DNA of 48,800 bases, from IMG/VR virus record IMGVR_UViG_3300031885_000027, positions 1 to 48,800 of that record; one strand, 5' to 3'. The first letter of the stretch is position 1; the number at the start of each line of letters is the position of its first letter. The notes below the pieces were generated by a model. That model was given only the letters and a program-made list of their open reading frames with translations. It was not told where the DNA came from and searched no databases. Below, in pieces: positions 4,006-37,486 of the stretch. Source of the DNA: a virus. A program made the translations under genes and the position numbers.

Positions 4006-7000
4006 TCAGTTCAGGTGCTCACGCCGCTTGTACTCATAGATGGCGTTGGTGGCCGCAACCTTGACCATGTTGGCAAGGTCAGACCCACCGATACCGTTGA
4101 CGTTCACGGTGACGCTGGTGCCCCCTCCCCCAGCTCCTCCCTTAGGGACGATGGTCTCCCCCTTTCCGATAGTCGTGGGCATCTCTCCAGCCGGAGCCTT
4201 GAGGACCTTGGCAGTGCCATCTGGGTTCTGACCAGCAACGAAGCCTCCGGCTGCATGGGGCTTAGCCGCCTCCACCTTGCCCGCCACGAAGCTCTTGGCA
4301 TCCCCTCCCTGCTTGTTGAGGGCAGAGGTGATTGCCCCGGCTGACATGTCCTTGTAGAGAGAATACTCAACCAGGGCAACTCGAATGGCATCTAGAACGG
4401 ACTTCTCGATCACTGGACCAAGTTCGTTTGCTAGGAAGCTCTTGTCGAGCTTGACGTCTCTCTTGAGGATGCCCGCAAGAACGCCAAAGCCGTCCGTGAG
4501 GGTCATCTCACTTTGGTCCCGAATGGTCTGAGTTACTTCAGCGATCCCTGTGTCCTTGGTGGCCTGGCGGACTTCGTCCATCCCTTTCCGGATCGAGTCC
4601 AGAGCTGGCCCCTGTACCTCAGTAGGGGCTGGATTTACCGCTGGGGCTGCCGAAGCTGGCTTTGGGGGTGTGGCTGCTGACTCTGCTTCTGGCTCCGGGG
4701 CGGCTGCTGACTCTGTTCCCTGTGCTGCTGGCTCATCCCCTAAGCCAAGGAAATTCTCGATAGCCCCTGTGAAAGTGGGGGCATTTACATCATCTTCCCC
4801 GCCCGCACCAACCAGATTTTTTGCCGCCGCCCAGTAACCTGGTTTTTCAGGCTCTTTCGCTGCCTCCGGCTGCTCCGGCTTCTTCTCGTCCCCAAACCCA
4901 AAGAATTTCCCGATAGCTCCCTTGAACAGCTTCTTGGATAGTTTCTGGATGATGTCTATGAGTCCGTTAATCATCTGGAGGATAGGGTTCGTAATGGCGT
5001 AGGCCAGCTTGTCCACGAACTCCCCCACCCAGTTTGTTAGACTCCCCGCAATAATACCAACCTTTGCCTCAATGCTGACGATGTCATTCCCAATCTTCTT
5101 CTGAAGGACATACTGATCCTTGATCCCCTTCGCCTCATTCTGGGTAACCTTGGACATAGTCTCCATGATGGCGTTGGAGTCCTTGGCTTGCAATTGTGAG
5201 GCTGCATCAGCATCCGTCGAATTGATATGCAGACCCTTCAGGATGCCTTGCTCCTCTTTGGTGAGTTCCGCATTCGTTTGAAGTTTGGCAACGATTTCTC
5301 CCTTGGTCTGGTCCAAACTCATGTACGTCTCCTTCGCCATGAGCACCTGCTCATCGGACAACCCCGCAGCTTGACCCGCAGCCAACAGTTGCGCCCCCTT
5401 GAGGTCTTTGATGCTCGTCCCGTGAGTTATGTTCTTGATAGCAGCATCCATGAGGTCGAAGTTAGCTTTCCAGGAGTTGTCTGCCATTGCTGAGGCGGTA
5501 TCTACAGCATCCCCACTAGCTAACTGCTGAGTACGCAGAGCTGCCCTATTGATGTCTGATCTCTGGCTCGCATTAAACTTGTTGCCCATCCTCGTAGCCA
5601 TCTTAATCTGCCACTTGGATGTCTCCTCCGGACTCTTGTGAACCGCATCCAGCATCTCCTTAGTTTCTGCTGCACTCAACTTCAAGTCCCCAGCCATCTC
5701 CGTTAGTTTGCGGTCGCTATCCTTCATACCTATGGCGGCAGCCTTTGGCGTCCCAGCCATGATGGTGAGTTTCAGTCGTTCGGAGAGATCCTTATCCTTC
5801 GTCATGCCCACAAGGGACTGAGCGAACTTCTGAACTTGCTTGGGGTCCATCGCTTTACCCAGCATCTTCAACAACCGTGTGGTGTCTTCCAGTCGGTTGT
5901 TGTACAGGGTCATGTCATCACTCATCCCCCGAAGGATGTTGAAGAACTTGTTGGAGGCCATCCCAGAATTATTGGCAGCGTTCGTAATCGCCTGGAGTTT
6001 TAGCTGGGTTTTGTCCGCATCTATTCCCATGTCCGTGGTCATGTGGGACATGAGCTGGTTAACCTCCCCGATGCTCACTCCTAGACCCCTGCTAAAAACC
6101 ACAGATGACTGCACCAATTGCTTGGACAGAGCCTCTACCGGCATGTTGGCCTTCTTGGCAGCGTCACCAATCTGCTTCAGACCCAAACCCTCAGCCGCAA
6201 GACCACTGATCGTTGATGTGTACATCTCCGGAGTGATGCCCAAGTCCATGTTGTCTAAGTCGTGGGCAGCATCTCGTACCTTCTTGATCGTGGTGTGGAC
6301 ATCCGCGAAGGCTGCGTTGACGTTTCCGGCATGGCTTGCCAGGTACGCTGAGGTGTCTGATGCCTCCAGTAGGGAAGCATTGAACTGTTTTATTCTGGAA
6401 TCCAACTTCGTGATGATGTCGAACGCCACTGATAGTTGCCCCCCAAGAGCTGTCAGCACAGGCCCCATCTTAGTGAAGCCGCTCACAATCTTTCCCATAC
6501 CCCCCTCGGCCATCTTCATGGCCTTACCTGCGCCAGCTCCAGGCACCTCAGGTTTCTCAGTTCGTTTGCGGAGAAGATGCATCCCAGCCAACATCCCCTT
6601 CCCTATAATCTTGGCAGCCGCACCGGCCGCAGCAGGAAGGTCATTGTTGAGGAGTGCCTTCAGAGGGGCGGTGAGTAATTCCCCTCCATCAGAGATGCTT
6701 TGCGCTATCCTGGCTGGCCTGGCCTCAGACTCCTGATATGCGCTCTCCTCCAGTTTTTCCTTCATGTCGGCGGCTGACTTCTCAGCCTCCTCCATTGTCC
6801 GCTTGTACTTGGAGGCTTCGCTGTCCAGTTTACCGAAAATATTCTGCTGTTCCCTCAGACCGGTGTTCAGGTTTTGGAGAATCTTTTCGTCCGCCTTACG
6901 GTCTTGAGTTATTTTGGCCTGAATGGCACGACCCATTTCCAGTGCGTCTTTGTCCTTCCGGTCAGTTTGAGTGATGACCTTCCCGATCTTGTCCTCTTGC

Positions 7001-13750: not shown

Positions 13751-16700
13751 TCAGTTCACCTTCCACGCATCAGGGATGACACCCTCGTATTCGGAAGCTG
13801 TTCGCTCTAGATTACCTTGAACCTCAGGGGACAGCTCGATAGGGGGGTTCGCTCCTGGCTTCTGCACGTTCTCGCCAACCCTGAGGCCAGCCTCACTCAC
13901 GAATGGGGATATGCCTGCTGCCTTGCCGCCTACAGCCTTGGGGCAGACTATCGTGAGATTCACCGCTGCACGGGTAAGAGCAACATAGCCCAGGCGACGT
14001 TCAGATTCCATCTCCTGCTTGCGAGCCTCTGGGTCAGGTGGGGGCTGACCAGGTTTCACCGGGGGCTCGAAGGGGAATTTGCCCTTGGGCATCTGGACGT
14101 AGCAGTTAGTCCATTGAGCACCTTTGACACTGTGAACAGTTGAAATAAAGACTCCTGGTGGAGCTTTCCGCTGCTCTGGGGGTAGAGCTGCCTGTTCTTT
14201 ATCCCACTTCGTGATGTCTACCCTAAGCTCACGAGCACGGCCAGCATAGCGATCCATCTTGGCCTTGAAGCCATTTGGAGTGTTGGGGTCAGTCAAGAGA
14301 TCCCCAGGGTCAGTGGGGTCTTTTTTGGCTAGCTCATACAGGAAGCCGATGTTCCCCAGACCCTCTGTATCGTCCTCGTCATCCCCTTCGGCATCCTCCC
14401 CAACAGCATCCCGAAGGTCTGCCTTGAGGCTGTCACGGAAAGTCTGCTCAACATAAGAAGCCTTACCTGAGTAAGGATCCGTCACAGCAACCAACCCTGT
14501 CATTCCAAGGATCTCGTCAAACATGTCCTTGGTTGTGTATTCAGGGTTAGCTGAGTTTGCCTGCATCTCGGAGATGCCTCGACCGATATCCTCCAGCTTT
14601 TCAATGGCCTTGTTGAACTTGAACCCGCCCCGCTGCTTGGTCAGCTTCTCTGCCAACACTGACTGAAAGCCGGGGTCACCCAGTGCAATGAGGGGGTTGA
14701 CCGTCTTGATGTCTTGGCCATTCCTTCGAGCATAGGCCGAGATGGATTCTTGAACAGCAGCAACCCCCGCATCGGGAGCCACGAAGAACCGGTTCGGCTT
14801 GTTGATGACCTCCCCAAGGGCATTTTGCATCTTGGTATAGTCATCCCCTGTGGCAAGCTGCACATAGCTCAGGAACGCTTTCGTCTCTGGAGACCCTAGA
14901 AAGCTGGATGCACCTTTGCGGGCGTAGGGAACGCCACGAATGATACAGGCCGTCTCGTAGGAGTGCTGTTCCTTGTTGGTCCTGGTCAGAATGGCGTTAT
15001 CCGCCACATCCCCACCTGTCTCGATGTTGGACTTGATCTCCTCGACAACACCCAATGCGGCGTCAGCCTCATCCAGAGGACTGGAAATTCGGATAGAGCC
15101 TACGCCCCGAACCTTGGAAGGGGACGGGACAGCCTCCATGTTCATCCTTCCGTCATTGTGAGCGATTAGCTTGTTCGCACATTCCACGATCTCTGGCTGG
15201 CAGCGGTAATTCGTGCGGATGGTGCGGACAGTCCAGTCCTCCTTTTGAGCCCTCCCCAAAAAGATATCCGGACGTGCCCCTCTGAACTGGTAAATCGCCT
15301 GGTTCGGATCTCCAACCATCCAGACGGACTTACCTTCGGAGGCGTCTTTGATGTGCTCGGACATCATCTCTGCAATGTCATTTTGACAGGCGTTAAGATC
15401 CTGACACTCGTCGATTAGGATGTGGTCATACACCCCCTGAAGGGTCTTCCGAACCAAGGGCTCACGCTTCAAAATGTCACGGTAGATTTTGAGCATGTCG
15501 TCAAAATCCCCGAGCCTCTGGTCATTGGGTCTCCAACGTCCCATGAAGGACTCATACCCCTTGGAAGTTTTGCAAGGGGGCTTCCAGCCTGGAATCGAAC
15601 CTTTCAAGCCCTCATACATATCGTACCAATCCGCAGCATCTACCTCGTCCTCTGTACGAGCATCCGCTTTGGCCTCAGCGGGAGTGACGTTGTTCCCCGA
15701 CCACTTGCTCTTGGCCATCAAGACGTTCTTGAGCTTCGGGATCTTTCTCTCCTGAGGAGAGTTCGCTGGAAAGCATTCACCCCATACTCTCTGAACTGCC
15801 CGAGCTACAGAACCACCCCCCTGAACGAACCCTCCCTTGTCCTGTCCCAGACCCATGGCACTACGCTCAGACGGCGTACCATACTCACCAATGAACTTCC
15901 GGAAAAGGGAGTGCATTGTCCCGACAGACATCTGTTGAAGTGTTTCCCCACTCGTAGCTGAGCCAATCTTCTGCTTCAGTTCATTGGCCGCCTTCGCGTT
16001 GAACGACGTGACCAGGATCCGGCTGGGGTTAACCCGCCGCTCCTTGACCAGGTACTCAACGCGAGCGACTAGCGTGGTTGATTTTCCGGATCCGGCGCCT
16101 GCCGACACCAACACACGACCATCCGTGAGTGCCGCAGCTCTCTGCTCATCATCCAGCTTACGGAGGGAGTCCGGCACGTTCTGTGGCTTCGAGGGATCTC
16201 CCATGGCAGCGGCAGCAGCCGCTACAGCGATACCGACGGTCTCTGCCCTGGTTGGAGGTGCATCGGACTCCCCAGAGGTATCGATGGCCTTCTTGGCAGC
16301 CTTGGTAGCTTCTTGTTCTACCTGGTTCAGGACATCTACCTGGTTCGCAGAAGCCTCTTCAACTCCCTCTGCACCACTGGCCCCAGCGGACTGGATCTGT
16401 TGGTTCAGGAGAACACTCGCCTGGTCTACCGCTTCCTTGGACCCCGCATCAATAGCGTTCTTAGGGATCTCCCTCTGCACAGCCGTCTTGGCTGCCAGGT
16501 CAATCCAATCCCGCAGCCTCACGTTCTTCATCGTGATGGCGGCAAACTTGTCCAGAGCCACGTCCGCATCATCGATCATCGAGGCCGACATAGCCTCACG
16601 GATTTCCTTGAGAGCCCGGTTCGTTTGGAACACGGCCCTCTGGGTCACCGCCCCACCACGGGACAGGACCGTCCGAAGGAGTAGTGCCCGACGACCAGCA

Positions 16701-17020
16701 TTCTGTGGATTGATCGCCCGGATGACCATGGCCCGCTGGAGGAGCTTCTTGTGGGACTCCGAGGGAAGGCTCTCACTCATCGCCTTCTCGACAGCCTCCC
16801 CGATCATCGCATCCGAGAGACGAAGGAGGCGGATGCCCCGGTGGGTCACCTCGTCCTGGGGTTCGCTTCCAGTCGCTTCCTCCACGTACCTCATGTACGT
16901 ATCCAGAGCGAGCACGAACACCACGTACTCCGCGATCTGAAGGTCACCGAAGTCTTCATCGGCTGCAACCCTGCGAGTTAAAGCCTGACGAACGGCCTGA
17001 CGGACGATGGATTCTTCCAC
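13751..17020 (-). CDS. Superfamily 1A (UvrD/Rep-like) DNA helicase with long N-terminal extension
   Basis: 1089 residues from GTG 17020, with GGAAGG about nine bases upstream. The helicase motifs are complete: Q-motif LDDEQRAA near 290, Walker A AGAGSGKST (K313), motif II LIDECQD (D537 E538), motif III GDPNQAIYQFRGA at 570-582, motif IV-like TNYRCQP, motif V STVHSVKGAQW and motif VI GYVALTRA near the C-terminus. The enzyme should unwind DNA 3' to 5' using ATP in replication or repair. The first 280 residues are helical and match no nuclease motif I can see, an unusual extension for this family. It lies inside the structural gene region rather than with replication genes. Confidence 0.9.
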   Translation of the reverse strand: MEESIVRQAVRQALTRRVAADEDFGDLQIAEYVVFVLALDTYMRYVEEATGSEPQDEVTHRGIRLLRLSDAMIGEAVEKAMSESLPSESHKKLLQRAMVIRAINPQNAGRRALLLRTVLSRGGAVTQRAVFQTNRALKEIREAMSASMIDDADVALDKFAAITMKNVRLRDWIDLAAKTAVQREIPKNAIDAGSKEAVDQASVLLNQQIQSAGASGAEGVEEASANQVDVLNQVEQEATKAAKKAIDTSGESDAPPTRAETVGIAVAAAAAAMGDPSKPQNVPDSLRKLDDEQRAAALTDGRVLVSAGAGSGKSTTLVARVEYLVKERRVNPSRILVTSFNAKAANELKQKIGSATSGETLQQMSVGTMHSLFRKFIGEYGTPSERSAMGLGQDKGGFVQGGGSVARAVQRVWGECFPANSPQERKIPKLKNVLMAKSKWSGNNVTPAEAKADARTEDEVDAADWYDMYEGLKGSIPGWKPPCKTSKGYESFMGRWRPNDQRLGDFDDMLKIYRDILKREPLVRKTLQGVYDHILIDECQDLNACQNDIAEMMSEHIKDASEGKSVWMVGDPNQAIYQFRGARPDIFLGRAQKEDWTVRTIRTNYRCQPEIVECANKLIAHNDGRMNMEAVPSPSKVRGVGSIRISSPLDEADAALGVVEEIKSNIETGGDVADNAILTRTNKEQHSYETACIIRGVPYARKGASSFLGSPETKAFLSYVQLATGDDYTKMQNALGEVINKPNRFFVAPDAGVAAVQESISAYARRNGQDIKTVNPLIALGDPGFQSVLAEKLTKQRGGFKFNKAIEKLEDIGRGISEMQANSANPEYTTKDMFDEILGMTGLVAVTDPYSGKASYVEQTFRDSLKADLRDAVGEDAEGDDEDDTEGLGNIGFLYELAKKDPTDPGDLLTDPNTPNGFKAKMDRYAGRARELRVDITKWDKEQAALPPEQRKAPPGVFISTVHSVKGAQWTNCYVQMPKGKFPFEPPVKPGQPPPDPEARKQEMESERRLGYVALTRAAVNLTIVCPKAVGGKAAGISPFVSEAGLRVGENVQKPGANPPIELSPEVQGNLERTASEYEGVIPDAWKVN

Positions 17021-31339: not shown

Positions 31340-31840
31340 TCAAGCGGTCCCACAAGTGAGAAACCGCTGCACCATCGACCCTACACCAGCGGGGTCATCG
31401 TTGAAAGCGGATTCCCACACGATAAGGCAGTCCATGCCAGCCTCCTTGTAAGCCGCTACCAGCTCGGACTCATGGTCGAAGTTAGCCTTGCCTGTGAACA
31501 TACGGGAATGCCAGTAGTCTCCGAACACCTCCACCACCTTGATCACACCCCTCTTAGGATGCTTCGGATCTGGGCCGGGAAGGATGAAGTCAGGGTTCTT
31601 GTGGTGCCCCAGAAGATTGAGCCACCTCCAGAACGTACCGTTCCCCGTGTAGAGGAGTGCGGGATGGGCTGAAGCAAAACGGCGTTCAAGGAGGTTGGGG
31701 CCTGGTAGGCCCATCTTTTCCAGGTGAGCCTTGGCGTACTCCCGGTTCATCATGGGATGGGGGAATCCGTACTTAGCGATTACCGAGGTTAGTCTGTCGA
31801 GACTGCTCAGGCTAAGATCAAAGCCAAGAGTTCCACCCAA
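31340..31840 (-). CDS. Vsr-like (EDxHD-type) endonuclease
   Basis: 166 residues from TTG 31840; an in-frame stop lies four codons upstream, so the N-terminus may be truncated. The C-terminal 90 residues are a Vsr-fold nuclease: NPDFILPGP (D84), VIKVVEVFGDYWHS (E104, D108, H111), ESELVAAYKEAGMDCLIVWES. This matches the EDxHD homing-nuclease group, of which some members sit in genes split by inteins. It lies directly downstream of the C-terminal half of a fractured intein-bearing gene, only 24 bases away. It probably is, or was, a homing endonuclease; the very short N-terminus leaves little DNA-recognition domain. Confidence 0.75.
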   Translation of the reverse strand: MGGTLGFDLSLSSLDRLTSVIAKYGFPHPMMNREYAKAHLEKMGLPGPNLLERRFASAHPALLYTGNGTFWRWLNLLGHHKNPDFILPGPDPKHPKRGVIKVVEVFGDYWHSRMFTGKANFDHESELVAAYKEAGMDCLIVWESAFNDDPAGVGSMVQRFLTCGTA

Positions 31841-31864: not shown

Positions 31865-32761
31865 TCAAAATCCTATGAATTTGGCAGGCGTGAGCACGCC
31901 CGCACCCGTATAGGGGCCGAAGCTGGACCGGATCCCGATCCCGTACCTGGGCTGCTGCAAACCAGAGATAATCTTGACCGTCTGCTTGGCTCGTTCCAAC
32001 TGGGACTCCCAGGAGTCCTTGATGGCCGAGTAGGCACTCTCGTACTTGGAGGACTTCTCGATGGTCAGGCTCACGCCACCGATGGAATAGTCAAACTCGT
32101 CAGAGATCCAGTTCAGCATCACAGCGAACAAGGCATGCATCATCGCCCCGTTCAGGAGTAAGGTCCGCCACTCGGGCCGGGTCTGAACAAACTGATCCAG
32201 GTTTTGGAACGGAGTCCTCGGGGGTGCTGCCGTGACTTGGTCCATCGCCCGCTGAAGGTACTCGTCCAGCTCCGCGTCCTCCCAGATGAACCCGAAGACC
32301 TTGTTGAACTGTGTGACGGTCTCCTCGTGAGCAGGGGGCCTGAAATGGTAGTTCCTGTCGGGGGAATTTGAGACAACGACCTTCGAGCGATGCAATACAA
32401 AGTTGTGCCACTTGTCTGCGGTAAGGTCGTACATGTACTTCCTAGGTCCCACTTCCTGTATCCTGAGCACCTGTGGTGTACCTATGGATTCTCCGAGCAC
32501 CCCCAATACATGAGAGGTGAATCGAAGGGACTCCATCTCGACCTTGTGGGTGGGGCTGACGAAGACTCGGTGCCCACCAGTCAAAGTGAACACCCCAAAC
32601 TCAGTGGAGCCCTCCCAAATGTTCTCTGGTCCAACTTCTGCACGAGAGACATCCCGGATAGGCTGCCATTCCACTGCTCCCTCAGGGGATACGGATCGCA
32701 CCCGAAGTTGACCGAGAATGAAGGCATCTGTGATTCTGGATTGTTGTTCAGAGGACAACAT
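31865..32761 (-). CDS. C-terminal half of a fractured virion gene: intein C-part plus C-extein
   Basis: 298 residues from the ATG at 32761, which overlaps the end of the inserted endonuclease gene; AAGGA lies 11 bases upstream. Residues 1-132 are an intein C-part: block B TLTGGHRVFV, block F YMYDLTADKWHNFVL, block G VVVSN. The C-extein begins with Ser (SPDRNYHFRPP) and runs 166 residues through FGFIWEDAELDEYLQRAM and FVQTRPEWRTLLLNGAMM. Splicing to the product of 33649-34149 would make a 296-residue virion protein joined at LRDN/SPDRN. The penultimate intein residue is Ser rather than the usual His. Confidence 0.85.
   Translation of the reverse strand: MLSSEQQSRITDAFILGQLRVRSVSPEGAVEWQPIRDVSRAEVGPENIWEGSTEFGVFTLTGGHRVFVSPTHKVEMESLRFTSHVLGVLGESIGTPQVLRIQEVGPRKYMYDLTADKWHNFVLHRSKVVVSNSPDRNYHFRPPAHEETVTQFNKVFGFIWEDAELDEYLQRAMDQVTAAPPRTPFQNLDQFVQTRPEWRTLLLNGAMMHALFAVMLNWISDEFDYSIGGVSLTIEKSSKYESAYSAIKDSWESQLERAKQTVKIISGLQQPRYGIGIRSSFGPYTGAGVLTPAKFIGF
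32366..32761 (-). other. Split intein, C-terminal fragment (132 residues)
   Basis: The fragment runs from Met 32761 to the terminal Asn codon 32368-32366; the +1 residue is Ser at 32365-32363. It contains blocks B, F and G, so nearly the whole Hint fold resides here and only block A is supplied in trans. Confidence 0.85.
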
Positions 32762-33671
32762 GGGCCAACCGATCCTTTTCTGTCCAAATCTCGAAATCCC
32801 ACCCCTGAGCCAAGGCAAATTGACGGCTGCGTTCCAGTCGAGTCTGGTTCTTGTCGTTCGGAGGCAGCCGGAGTACCCAAGATGCTTTGACCTCGACCAA
32901 ACATACTCGGCCAGAGGAATACCGAATGATGATGTCGGGCAAGAAATAACCCACGGAGTCTCGTAATAGAGATTCTACGTCGTAGCTGACAACCTCTGGG
33001 TTGGTATCAAGAATGGTCATCGCTGCTCGCTCATAGGAGCTACGAGTCCAAACCTTTGAACGGGAGCACTTGATCCCATGATGCCAAGCACAGCGACCCC
33101 GCGAGGACTTACCAGGATGCTTGGCTATGTACTTGGTTGTACGCTTAGACCTTCTACGTCGCTCTTGGGGAGAACGGTGAAAAGCTAGAAGAAACTCCCT
33201 ATACTCGGGAGTCTCCCACAGTTTCTTGTGTGTGGCGGACATCCCCGAGCGCACTTCTGGCGTAAGGGCTGCTCTCTGTCGTTCGATCTCCCCCTGTGTA
33301 CGGACTCGCCCCTTAAAGAAGTCGTATTTTCCTTCTTGCCACCCCTGACGAAGCTGTGTGGACAGCCAAGGCTTCACTTCACCTTTCCTAGATGCCCCAA
33401 CCCTAGCCGCACTCTCCTGGCGATTCCTCTTGGAAGCTTCGTTCCACATAGCACGGGTGCCCCGCTGAATAGCCCCCAGCGATAGGCCCGTCACAAGGGT
33501 CATCTCAGTCCAAGATGTTCCTGCAAGATGCAACTCTGTGATTACATCTCTCCGTTTTTCGCTGACCCACTGAAGACCTTGTGGGAGCCGCCCTTTCTTG
33601 GCAAATAGTTCCCAGGAAAGGTCATGCTTCTCAAGCAATGGTACTAGCTCAGGATGTGGGCTTCTGAACAT
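32748..33671 (-). CDS. PD-(D/E)XK (TnsA-like) homing-type endonuclease inserted in a split intein
   Basis: 307 residues in a third frame between the two intein genes, overlapping the N-part gene by 23 bases and the C-part start by 14. The N-terminal region has an HTH (HLAGTSWTEMTLVTGLSLGAI). The middle is basic with a NUMOD-like flavour (MSATHKKLWETPEYREF) and a possible zinc knuckle CAWHHGIKC at 194-202. The C-terminal 100 residues are the nuclease: E214 in SSYERAAM, P245-D246 in FLPDIII, E260-V-K262 in CLVEVKASW, then FALAQGWDFEIWTEKD. This is the TnsA/PD-(D/E)XK arrangement. It should cut intein-less alleles and spread the split intein. Confidence 0.85.
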   Translation of the reverse strand: MFRSPHPELVPLLEKHDLSWELFAKKGRLPQGLQWVSEKRRDVITELHLAGTSWTEMTLVTGLSLGAIQRGTRAMWNEASKRNRQESAARVGASRKGEVKPWLSTQLRQGWQEGKYDFFKGRVRTQGEIERQRAALTPEVRSGMSATHKKLWETPEYREFLLAFHRSPQERRRRSKRTTKYIAKHPGKSSRGRCAWHHGIKCSRSKVWTRSSYERAAMTILDTNPEVVSYDVESLLRDSVGYFLPDIIIRYSSGRVCLVEVKASWVLRLPPNDKNQTRLERSRQFALAQGWDFEIWTEKDRLAHVVL

Positions 33672-34149
33672 CCCTCAGAGTCTCCCACAGGTCATCCATA
33701 CGGACAACCATATTTTCACCAGCAACGTCTAACTCCACCGTTTCTTCACCTCCCACACAGTTGTCCCTCAGAAGGATCCTCAACCGACGAACCAAGTCAG
33801 CCTCCACGTCTGTGAGGTTTGAAGAGAGGATGGTCGCCTTGTCGATGCAGTCGAATTCCTGGACCACCTGCTGGATAGGTCCACCCACTGTCTCTCGAAA
33901 GGTCCACCTCACTCGATAGGATCCTATGTTGGCATCCAGGGGGATGATGACCGAAGCGAAGTACTCCCCTACCGAGGGGTTCACCGGGATCCTCGTAGGC
34001 GAGCCTAAGAGCACCTCCATGCCTGTCGTGTTGTCGTACAGGGCATAGGTGATCTCAGCCGCATTGGTCGGCGTGTTGTTGGTGTTCTCCAGGAAGATGT
34101 TCAGGTCTTCCCGGCCCAACTGTTGACCTCGGTAGTAACTTACGGGCAT
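33649..34149 (-). CDS. N-terminal half of a fractured virion gene: N-extein plus intein N-part
   Basis: 166 residues. Residues 1-130 are the extein: a beta-sandwich segment (GEYFASVIIPLDANIGSYRV, RWTFRETVGGPIQQV), then a helix VEADLVRRLRILLRDN. At C131 an intein starts: CVGGEETVELDVAGE and VRMDDLWETLRD are block A and its following helix, ending at S166. The 36-residue intein piece lacks block B, which is found in the gene at 31865-32761. The beta-sandwich resembles those in the proteins encoded at 34511-35476 and 40629-41018. The spliced protein is probably a neck or tail component. Confidence 0.85.
   Translation of the reverse strand: MPVSYYRGQQLGREDLNIFLENTNNTPTNAAEITYALYDNTTGMEVLLGSPTRIPVNPSVGEYFASVIIPLDANIGSYRVRWTFRETVGGPIQQVVQEFDCIDKATILSSNLTDVEADLVRRLRILLRDNCVGGEETVELDVAGENMVVRMDDLWETLRDVQKPTS
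33652..33759 (-). other. Split intein, N-terminal fragment (36 residues, block A only)
   Basis: It begins with the nucleophilic Cys codon at 33759-33757, directly after the Asn that ends LRDN, and stops at TGA 33651-33649. A break this early is atypical; known natural split inteins usually break after block B. Short N-parts of 16-25 residues are known for the VidaL and AceL-TerL type. Confidence 0.85.
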
Positions 34150-34510: not shown

Positions 34511-35476
34511 TCAATCCCATCCGTACTTCAAGATCCTGACGGTCGTGTCTCTTGGATCGGCTGCCGCTACGGCATCCTGGACGCTGAATCGAGACTCCAC
34601 CTCTTGGATGGGTGAAAAGAAGTTCTGCTGATAGGTCCAGCGTACCAGCCAATCGCCTGGCTGTCCAAACTCTCCGACCCTCCCGGTAACGTAGAACTGC
34701 CCCACATTTGGGCCTCGTGCGGGGACACGGTTCGCTGGCCCAGCCTGGAAGGGGATGCCGTTCCTGAGCCAGTAGAGCGTGAAACTGACCGATGCGGGCA
34801 TCACAGCCCCAGCCGAGTTGCGGAGGAACAGTTGAAGTCCTCCCGTCCCAGAGGGGAAAAACTCGTTCCACCTATATGGCCCTCCCCCTGAACAGGGGCA
34901 AGGGGCAGAGGTCTGTTGGACCAGAAGGGTGCCACCACAGGAACACCTAGTCTGGGTGACCGGCTGGGGAGTCCGGCAAGCACAGACCGGCTCCGGCATC
35001 TGCTCCTGCCAGAGGTACCCGACCATCAGGGACGTACCGATGAGAGGGTCCGGGAAGTGCCCGCCTAACGTCCCTACGCCCTGTATGAGCCCTCGGAGGA
35101 GAAGAACAAGGGTAGCATCCCCCGTGACAGTAGCGGTCCCCGCAGTGGTCCCTGAGAGCAACAGGACGGGGATAGACAGAATCCCCGTCCCATAGACCGC
35201 ACCCGAGCAGAGCAGAGTTGTGTAGGTGGTCTTGACCAGCGGGCTCGGGATGACCGCCCCGCTGGGAATCCCCACAGGCCCAGGAAGGAAAGCCTGGGTT
35301 GGGGTGCCGAACGCCACCCCGGTGGGGATCCCTGTCGGCTGAATCAGCGTGACGCTGCTGAACGTGACAATCGGAGTGCCAAACGCCTCGGCCGACAGGA
35401 TACTCGAAGCCCCAATGGTCTGGGTGAGCTTCGGGGTTCCGAACGCTTCTGCTGAGGGGATCCAAGTAGTTGGCAC
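34511..35476 (-). CDS. Virion protein with AFGTP repeats, CxC clusters and a beta-sandwich end
   Basis: 321 residues from GTG 35476, with AGAGAG upstream. It is modular. Residues 5-80 hold three clear copies and one degenerate copy of a motif around SAEAFGTP. A Gly/Thr/Leu-rich strand region follows at 80-150. Three CxC pairs lie within 31 residues (C165/167, C178/180, C193/195), a probable zinc or disulfide site. The C-terminal 110 residues are a beta-sandwich with PGDWLVRWTYQQN, like that of the intein-bearing virion protein. It is probably a fibre or decoration component. The repeat continues from the end of the preceding gene. Confidence 0.65.
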   Translation of the reverse strand: MPTTWIPSAEAFGTPKLTQTIGASSILSAEAFGTPIVTFSSVTLIQPTGIPTGVAFGTPTQAFLPGPVGIPSGAVIPSPLVKTTYTTLLCSGAVYGTGILSIPVLLLSGTTAGTATVTGDATLVLLLRGLIQGVGTLGGHFPDPLIGTSLMVGYLWQEQMPEPVCACRTPQPVTQTRCSCGGTLLVQQTSAPCPCSGGGPYRWNEFFPSGTGGLQLFLRNSAGAVMPASVSFTLYWLRNGIPFQAGPANRVPARGPNVGQFYVTGRVGEFGQPGDWLVRWTYQQNFFSPIQEVESRFSVQDAVAAADPRDTTVRILKYGWD

Positions 35477-35836
35477 GAGGGTTCTCTCTTAGTGTGTCAA
35501 AAAGAGACTCTGCGATGGGGTGCCAAAAGCCTCCCCAGACGGGATTCCGGACGGTTTGAACACGACCGGGATGTATACGACCTGGACGGATCCGAACGCC
35601 CCCACAGATGAGATGCCTAGGAATGCCACGACGTGCCTGTATTCCGTTAGGTCAAACGCCTGAGTGGGCGTCCCGAACGCCTCGGCCGACAGGATGCCCG
35701 GAGGTTGAATGATACTCGAAGAGAGGAGGAATTCCTGAGTAGGTAGGCCGAACGCCTCAGCCGAGAAGACTCCTGTAGGCCGAGGGATGAACTCTTGGAT
35801 GGATGTTCCAAATGCCTCACCTGACAGGATCCCTAC
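35236..35836 (-). repeat. AFGTP motif repeats straddling two genes
   Basis: About nine copies at intervals of roughly 20-26 residues: five at the C-terminus of the gene ending at 35489 (GILSGEAFGTS, GVFSAEAFGLP, GILSAEAFGTP, GISSVGAFGSV, GIPSGEAFGTP) and three to four at the N-terminus of the gene starting at 35476. The array is cut only by a stop, 12 bases and a new GTG. Confidence 0.75.
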
Positions 35837-37486
35837 AGGGAAGAGATTTTTGACGATGGACGCATCCAGGACCATCGTAGGTAACGTGAACAGCGTCGTA
35901 CTGGCAGGGATGTCCAGTGACCCCTGTACAGTCCACCCCGTGATGGTGCTCAGAGATGCATTGCCGACCATGTCGGCCTGATTTGTTAAAGTCTGACCAG
36001 CAATCGCCGGAAGGTTTGTGCTGGCCTGTGCAGTGAGAATCTCTGAGGCCGTGTATCCCGGATAAGCGGGGAGAACCACAGCAACGGGGATGGTGACACT
36101 GACGGACCCTGTGAACCCTGCCGTCGAAGTCAGGGTCAACGCCGAGTCTGCTACGGACACAACGGTTCCCACCAATGTCACGATGGTGGTGACCGCAAAC
36201 GTAACCGTACCATTCATTTCGATTACGTTACCGGTATACCAGACAGCCGTCGTGTTGAACGAGTTGAGGAGATTGTAGGTGGCGGTTTCCCCCTCGACAG
36301 CATCCGGATGAGAGGCAAATGCACTGGCAGCCGCAGCATCTAGATTGTTTGAAGAAGCCCAAGTCGAGGTTTGACTGAAAGCCGTGGAGGAGAAGTAGTC
36401 GATGGCCCTGTCGGACGTAAATCCAGCAGTTGTGGTCAGCGTTTCAGAAGCCAGGGCAGTGAGATCGTTGGACGGCTGGAAGACAGGTGTGACAGCTAGG
36501 ATCAGATTCCCAGCGGCGTCCAATGTTTCGGTGACTACGAACCCCGCTCCGGTAGTCGCTATCGTCTGAGAAACAGGGATGTCCACTGAACTTGTCAGGA
36601 CAAAAGCACCTGTTTGTGCGAGCGTTTGGGAAGCTACAGCAGTGAGGTCGTTGGTTGGGGCAAATACACCCGTCTGTGCGAGCGTCTGGGATGCCAGGGC
36701 AGTGAGATCGTTGGCCGTAGACCAACTTGTTGTGGTCGGGAGCGTTGTGCTCAGGAAGAAGCTGATTGTGCTAGAAGCGGTGAACCCCGCCGTAGTCGAT
36801 ATGGTTCCTAGAGAAGCCGGGATGTCTAGGGTTCCGACTAGAACTAAGGCAGCGGTCTGAGTGAGCGTCTGGGATGCAACAGCAGTGAGGTCGTTGGTCT
36901 GAGTGAGTGCTGCTGTTTGAGTGAGCGTCTGGGATGCAACAGCATCCAGAGTCTCGGTGGTTGTGAAGCTAGTAGTTGCGGGCAGCGTTAGAGTTACCCC
37001 AACACCCAACTGGGAATCAGTCGAGAAGCCTCCCGTCTGTGAGGTGGCCAGTGAAGCCGGGATGTCCAGGTTCCCCACCTCACTGAACGCGGCTGTCTGA
37101 GCAAACGTCTGAGAAGCCAGGGCAGTGAGATCGTTGGTCGGGGTGAACCCAGCCGTTACGGGGAGTGTCTCGGATGCTACTGCATCCAGATTGGTGGTTG
37201 TGGTGAACCCCGCCGTTACAGGAAGGGTCTGGTTTCCTGCTGCATCAAGCGTCTGGTCTGTAGTGAACCCCGCTGCTGTTTGACTTAGTGTTTGAGTTTG
37301 TTCCCACAGAACAGTCCCCGATTGGATAGACCCAAGGATAACATCGTTCGCCCCATATGGAGGGGTTGTGCTGAACAGAATGATGCTCAGAGCCCTGGCC
37401 GGAGCCGTGCCTGATGGAACGTAGAGTCGGATGTCGTTCGGCCCATCCAACCCCGTCGGTTGCAGGGTGATGTCGGCCAACGCCAT
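35489..37486 (-). CDS. Repeat-rich fibre/adhesin-like virion protein
   Basis: 665 residues. After an N-terminal beta segment (LQPTGLDGPNDIRLYVPSG), residues about 60-395 are some 16 tandem copies of a 20-residue Thr/Ala/Ser-rich unit of the type NDLTALASQTLAQTAAF. Looser copies continue to about 525. Residues 550-660 hold five AFGTP-type repeats. There are almost no charged residues or Cys. The regular period suggests a beta-solenoid or fibrous shaft exposed on the virion, possibly binding carbohydrate. It lies among appendage-like genes. Confidence 0.7.
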   Translation of the reverse strand: MALADITLQPTGLDGPNDIRLYVPSGTAPARALSIILFSTTPPYGANDVILGSIQSGTVLWEQTQTLSQTAAGFTTDQTLDAAGNQTLPVTAGFTTTTNLDAVASETLPVTAGFTPTNDLTALASQTFAQTAAFSEVGNLDIPASLATSQTGGFSTDSQLGVGVTLTLPATTSFTTTETLDAVASQTLTQTAALTQTNDLTAVASQTLTQTAALVLVGTLDIPASLGTISTTAGFTASSTISFFLSTTLPTTTSWSTANDLTALASQTLAQTGVFAPTNDLTAVASQTLAQTGAFVLTSSVDIPVSQTIATTGAGFVVTETLDAAGNLILAVTPVFQPSNDLTALASETLTTTAGFTSDRAIDYFSSTAFSQTSTWASSNNLDAAAASAFASHPDAVEGETATYNLLNSFNTTAVWYTGNVIEMNGTVTFAVTTIVTLVGTVVSVADSALTLTSTAGFTGSVSVTIPVAVVLPAYPGYTASEILTAQASTNLPAIAGQTLTNQADMVGNASLSTITGWTVQGSLDIPASTTLFTLPTMVLDASIVKNLFPVGILSGEAFGTSIQEFIPRPTGVFSAEAFGLPTQEFLLSSSIIQPPGILSAEAFGTPTQAFDLTEYRHVVAFLGISSVGAFGSVQVVYIPVVFKPSGIPSGEAFGTPSQSLFLTH
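36304..37309 (-). repeat. Degenerate 60-base (20-residue) tandem repeat array
   Basis: About 16 units. The period is plain in DNA: the same 27 bases occur at 36858-36884 and 36918-36944, exactly 60 apart. Units alternate between NDLTA(L/V)ASQTL and (T/N)LD(A/I) forms, suggesting expansion from larger multi-unit blocks. Confidence 0.8.

Follow-up and report, generated by a model that had tools for sequence, protein, structure and literature searches.

A split intein with a TnsA-like nuclease gene between its halves: a putative fractured-gene homing element in a virion protein gene of very large phages

Known split inteins and the layout of the locus

The fractured genes of Dassa et al. 2009 reportedly occur in phage-like DNA as pairs in which either gene encodes half of the extein joined to half of the intein, and a homing endonuclease gene of the EDxHD type is reported to lie between the two. 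A three-gene unit with this layout was found in a 48.8-kb virus contig (the window, meaning the whole stretch analysed here, along which all positions are numbered); as reported for the Dassa loci, two extein/intein-half genes flank a putative homing endonuclease gene. The window unit differs from those loci as reported in that its nuclease is TnsA-like and of the PD-(D/E)XK type (HNH in one relative) and not EDxHD, its intein is split near residue 35 and not at the canonical site ~35 residues from the C-terminus, and its extein is a virion connector-type protein.

The atypically split TerL inteins GOS-TerL (37+115), AceL-TerL (25+104) and Cat-TerL (30+104) (PMC11766414) share with the window intein a short N-intein, a long C-intein and a similar split position, although they lie in another gene and at another insertion site. 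Contiguous inteins with a nested homing endonuclease such as PI-PfuI and PI-PkoII also combine a Hint-type intein and a homing endonuclease at one conserved site, whereas the nuclease described here is encoded by a separate gene at an N-terminal split, close to the N35 site. Beyer et al. 2019 (PMC6801210) argued on steric grounds that the symmetry-related N35 site cannot take a nested nuclease. Judged by N-intein length and by near-equal CDC21 intein profile offsets, the split point of the present family (residue ~30-36) would be the structural equivalent of N35. Keyword searches of the open-access literature, which cannot prove absence, found no earlier description of a split intein with a TnsA-like homing nuclease, and the TnsA type appears to be a new nuclease class for intein homing.

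The unit is composed of three overlapping open reading frames (ORFs), each in a different frame of the minus strand, with the following features (lengths in amino acids, aa).

34149 (ATG) to 33649 (stop), minus strand: N-gene (ORF and translation)
33760..34149, minus strand: N-extein, 130 aa, immunoglobulin (Ig)-like beta-sandwich domain and first helix, ending ...LRILLRDN (ORF and translation; uninterrupted homologue L003; beta-sandwich in the L020 model)
33649..33759, minus strand: N-intein, 36 aa, CVGGEETVELDV...KPTS and stop codon (ORF and translation)
32748..33671 (ATG at 33671), minus strand: putative homing endonuclease gene, 307 aa (ORF; Pfam TnsA-like N; orthologues in the same place in 13 other phages)
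33102..33671, minus strand: nuclease residues 1-190, helical N-terminal part (AlphaFold secondary structure)
32772..33065, minus strand: TnsA-like PD-(D/E)XK catalytic domain, residues ~203-300 (orthologue alignment; Foldseek)
32761 (ATG) to 31865-31867 (stop), minus strand: C-gene (ORF and translation)
32366..32761, minus strand: C-intein, 132 aa (ORF; invariant residues; profile matches to PDB inteins)
31865..32365, minus strand: C-extein, 166 aa and stop codon, opening with Ser+1 (codon 32363-32365)

The nuclease gene overlaps the N-gene by 23 bases and the C-gene by 14 bases. The N-gene product runs through 130 extein residues into CVGGEETVELDVAGENMVVRMDDLWETLRDVQKPTS, the Cys1 codon being at 33757-33759 and the split point near intein residue 35. 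The C-gene product begins with 132 intein residues, which include the block-B motif TGGHRVF (His codon 32570-32572) and YDLTADKWHNFVL (His-Asn at 32402-32407) and extend to ...YDLTADKWHNFVLHRSKVVVSN, ending VVVSN (terminal Asn codon 32366-32368), and then continues as the extein SPDRNYHFRPP. Joined, the intein has 168 residues and the spliced extein 296, with the predicted junction LRILLRDN-SPDRNYHFRPP. A first-pass annotation, made from the window sequence, had proposed this arrangement, and its three genes in three frames, overlaps of 14-23 bases, Cys at 33759, VVVSN before Ser, joined lengths of 168 and 296 residues and junction LRDN-SPDRNYHFRPP all agreed with the ORFs and translations. 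Its reading of the unit as a gene fractured by a split intein gained support from the homologues and profile searches presented below, and its assignment of the extein to a virion protein from the homologues.

We consider it very likely (a probability of roughly 0.93) that the unit is a homing element of the fractured-gene type, with a trans-spliced virion protein, nuclease-driven spread and later decay. This reading draws on what can be read from sequence, namely the architecture, homology, site-specificity, insertion states and conserved catalytic residues, together with horizontal transfer and a co-conversion footprint. Three proteins would be made: the N-extein with the N-intein, the TnsA-like homing endonuclease, and the C-intein with the C-extein. 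The intein halves would pair, fold as a single Hint domain and trans-splice, with Cys1 attacking the upstream peptide bond, the N-extein being passed to Ser+1 and the terminal Asn cyclising, to give a continuous 296-aa virion protein, a probable head-tail connector or adaptor. In a co-infecting relative with an intein-free allele of the conserved site, the nuclease would cut that allele, and copying during break repair would bring in the intein halves together with the nuclease gene and short flanking stretches. Once the element has spread, the nuclease might decay or be deleted, some elements might re-fuse to a one-piece mini-intein and the element might be lost; the direction of this decay series is our inference from the sequences.

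Intein sequence and the +1 residue

The first-pass annotation had proposed a search for homologues reading across LRDN-SPDRN, and had named separate intein-free halves as one finding that would speak against its reading. Viral contig L003 was found to encode a 300-aa uninterrupted homologue with LRIMLRDN-NPDRNYHFRPP across the junction, so that the finding named as contrary did not come up. In a survey of homologous loci (L numbers), 76 distinct versions were uninterrupted, their frames continuing through LRDN^(N)PDRNYHF, and 18 distinct versions were interrupted. The interrupted set was later enlarged by further scans (L185, L186, L281), with L002, which is closely related to the window, counted separately.

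Cys1 and the terminal Asn were present in 18/18 interrupted loci. The +1 residue was Ser (14) or Cys (4) in all 18, versus 1 of 76 empty genes (Fisher p=2e-18), which carry Asn in most cases, Lys in five, Ala in one and Ser in one. A splicing intein requires a nucleophile at +1 and a spacer does not, and because of this we regard Ser/Cys at +1 as the decisive functional signature. A similar physical layout is known elsewhere without an intein, phage Aeh1 nrdA being a reported case of genes in pieces (PMC3653736), and the nuclease gene could likewise have broken the extein gene here into halves which function as separate subunits without splicing. We judge this very unlikely, since both halves bear intein sequence with conserved catalytic residues, the +1 Ser/Cys is tied to the interruption and one-piece inteins occupy the identical site.

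In split loci the N-intein is 30-36 aa long, and the C-intein starts from an ATG a short way upstream of the conserved strand G-x-L-(R/K)-V-x-S. When 12 joined inteins were aligned, Cys1, E5, E6, D11 and G14 were invariant, as were T97, G99 and H100 (TxGH), D148 and T150 (D-x-T), H155 and N156 (HN) and the terminal N168. Sequence features of a class 1 intein were thus found, namely Cys1, block B Thr-x-x-His and a C-terminal Asn with Cys/Ser/Thr at +1. A profile of the 12 joined inteins matched almost only inteins and Hint domains in the PDB, the top match being the M. jannaschii MJ0781 (KlbA) intein (6e-9), and Pfam Intein_splicing was matched by 11 of the 12. Single-sequence searches of the window proteins against PDB and PHROGs returned nothing useful for intein or extein. 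In an intein-profile scan the family was found in the extein gene only, and no C-gene relative was detectable in bacterial genome contigs by the patterns used.

In two loci (L020, L027) the intein at the same site is a single piece in one ORF, its sequence continuous through the split point. This bears on a further explanation. Phage genes are known intron targets, and a nuclease-bearing insert between exon-like halves could be a self-splicing intron that encodes its own nuclease, in which case frames running on into the intron by chance would account for the peptide tails. We give this almost no credence, as the tails are conserved protein and match inteins, and translation of the one-piece versions continues straight through them. 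A group I or group II intron was rejected as a candidate because no part of the window matched an Rfam family.

Several points weigh against a trans-splicing homing element. The window intein by itself scored 20.1 bits, under the Pfam cutoff of 35.8, and most members have Ser, not the usual His, at the penultimate position next to the terminal Asn. In the AlphaFold model of the one-piece L020 protein only the first part of the intein was confident, with residues 224-320 low and the C-intein at pLDDT (predicted local distance difference test) <50; the Hint fold therefore rests on sequence profiles, because confidence was low over most of the L020 C-intein. The rows of the L020 fold alignment were N-genes, C-genes and empty genes. 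The splicing chemistry, the DNA cleavage and the target site of the nuclease are predictions, and the near-isogenic comparisons given below come from few pairs in metagenomic assemblies.

The TnsA-like nuclease and movement of the element

The middle gene matched Pfam PF08722 (TnsA-like N). In a Foldseek search of the nuclease model against the PDB the top three matches were TnsA (1t0f/1f1z; E 6e-5 to 2e-4, probability 1.0, root-mean-square deviation 2.2-4.0), and phmmer with the nuclease against the PDB gave no relevant match. The catalytic domain thus shares with TnsA of Tn7 both its fold and the E...PD...E-x-K residues, and E214, P245-D246 and E260-V-K262 were invariant in 12 nuclease orthologues. 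Unlike TnsA, it is preceded by a helical putative DNA-binding region, it is encoded inside a split intein, and the unit showed no transposon context. The N-terminal ~190 residues presumably bind DNA and recognise the target. Full-length relatives of the nuclease were found at this insertion site only. Taken by itself, the catalytic domain resembles, and is related to, T4 gp4-like head-closure proteins (phrog_218, E 6e-11), which differ in being freestanding among tail genes and in lacking the N-terminal region and the intein halves.

The first-pass annotation had placed a TnsA-like PD-(D/E)XK nuclease where the EDxHD type was first described. For the middle gene this was borne out by Pfam and by the nuclease fold match, but EDxHD/Vsr types nearby had been overlooked, in a remnant at 31340-31840 and in a second split intein of relatives. 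An EDxHD/Vsr-like identity for the middle gene was rejected, as it is TnsA-like by Pfam and fold and Vsr-like models fit the second-site nucleases only. The 166-aa ORF at 31340-31840 (minus strand), immediately 3' of the C-gene, is similar to the C-terminal portion of DUF7487 + EDxHD-like proteins of 474-477 aa that occupy the same place in L004 and L185 (33% and 29% identity), and it is absent from L002. It seems to be what is left of an EDxHD-like nuclease gene that was separate and freestanding. Intein presence was only weakly associated with a downstream EDxHD-like gene (6/18 vs 9/71, p 0.07).

Pairwise ratios of nonsynonymous to synonymous differences (pN/pS) of the nuclease were 0.31-0.42, and the gene is therefore under purifying selection. 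The three-gene unit of LR745208.1, an independent 485-kb phage genome, matches that of the window at 51/44/43% identity, and because this genome and 18 other distinct phages have the unit it is not a product of chance. Degraded nucleases in some relatives (L002, L012, L046) would suit a dead relic, in which a one-piece intein with a nested endonuclease was broken by frameshifts or assembly error. Such an origin is extremely improbable, since phages with no more than 43-51% identity and different metagenomes share the split point, the overlaps and the open frames, and since the nuclease is under purifying selection and the catalytic residues (in 12 orthologues) and splicing residues are invariant.

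The states of the first site were counted over 22 distinct occupied loci, 20 split and 2 one-piece, as follows.

Split, intact TnsA-like nuclease, n=14: window, L004, L008, L010, L011, L015, L026, L030, L033, L036, L037, L073, L185, L186
Split, HNH nuclease instead, n=1: L014, gene 5175-6011 (Pfam HNH, 1.6e-9)
Split, degraded nuclease, n=3: L002, L012, L046
Split, no nuclease, n=2: L013, L281
One-piece intein, n=2: L020, L027

The degraded nuclease of L002 has an in-frame deletion of 771 bases (L002 311-420 vs window 33640/32868). Its intein and most of its extein are 100% identical to those of the window (the unit is otherwise 99-100% identical), and other genes of the L002 contig are 80-100% identical. 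An empty gene, L029 516-1403, carries Ser at +1 (LRDN-SPDRNYHF) and may be the scar of intein loss. One codon-precise site thus holds a natural series of states: empty; split, the nuclease being intact, decayed or missing; one-piece; and a possible loss scar.

On an extein tree built with the +1 residue removed, well-supported branches require at least 11 changes of site occupancy. Between L037 (occupied) and L156 (first site empty), identity is about 95-100% at a distance from the site but falls to 86% over the 100 bases immediately upstream of it and to 78-86% over the 400 bases immediately downstream, and a divergent tract of this kind is the footprint expected of co-conversion in double-strand-break repair. 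The elements of L033 and L186 are near-identical (synonymous divergence, dS, 0.05-0.10 for the intein and 0.13 for the nuclease), while their exteins are saturated at synonymous sites (pS 0.78-0.89). Divergences of intein and nuclease were correlated when extein divergence was controlled for (partial rho 0.60, permutation p 0.001), and because of this correlation we conclude that the two travel together. These comparisons indicate that the element moves horizontally and site-specifically. The empty alleles, the co-conversion tract and the horizontal transfer are indirect evidence that the middle gene is a homing endonuclease. The state series, the near-isogenic pairs and the co-conversion tract make the homing cycle testable for split inteins.

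A second insertion site, the extein protein and neighbouring genes

Some relatives carry a second intein in the extein gene, at ...DEF^(D)YSIGG, with Ser1 and Ser+1 (occupied: DEF^SYSIGG); in the window this site is empty.

Second site split: L036, L046, L073, L097, L156, L281
Second site one-piece: L037, L186
Second split intein with Vsr/DUF559-like nuclease gene: L036 6698-7669; L156 5758-6723; L097 5782-6837; L281 5966-6913

The second-site intein of L186 scored 81.6 bits with Pfam Intein_splicing. A Vsr/DUF559-like nuclease between the second-site halves was recognised by Pfam in L036 and L156 and by sequence motif, by eye, in L073, L097 and L281; none was found in L046. Both sites are split in L036, L046, L073 and L281, and the protein is there encoded in three pieces. 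The L186 fusion contains an internal Met-Met-Asp-Asn where the separate C-gene of L281 begins, which suggests that a split intein was converted to a fused one. Split inteins are usually assumed to derive from contiguous ones, the reverse of this direction. Taking both sites together, we hold with even odds a joint reading in which splitting would let a nuclease gene sit near N35 and make the nuclease exchangeable (TnsA-like or HNH at the first site, Vsr-like at the second), proteins made of three polypeptides would need two orthogonal trans-splicing reactions, and one-piece mini-inteins would derive from split ones by nuclease loss. Candidate protein-ligation tools are the N-inteins of 30-36 aa and those cases in which two different split inteins occur together in a single gene.

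The host phages are a family of very large phages. Uninterrupted relatives of the extein protein include gp319 of Tunturiibacter phage Tunturi_5, which is annotated as a head-tail connector, and the more distant gp165 of Bacillus phage G. The AlphaFold model of the L020 orthologue has an N-terminal beta-sandwich, and Foldseek with this model returned mostly matches to the Ig-like extein domain, the best in the PDB, weak with an E of 1.7e-3, being the adaptor protein in the portal-adaptor complex of a siphophage. From homology and the model, the extein protein is likely a head-tail connector or adaptor.

The end of the upstream gene (34511-35476, minus strand) resembles the Ig-like domain of the N-extein, and tblastn with the N-extein gave 21-29% similarity to an upstream gene in related loci; by this similarity its product is probably a paralogous virion protein. 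Next to it, at 35489-37486 (minus strand), is encoded a 665-aa protein with many near-repeats of the LTA-ASQTL-QTA-F type and without a PHROG match. The structural genes share their strand with the gene for a 1089-aa DNA helicase (13751-17020, minus strand; phrog_1967, E 4e-84).
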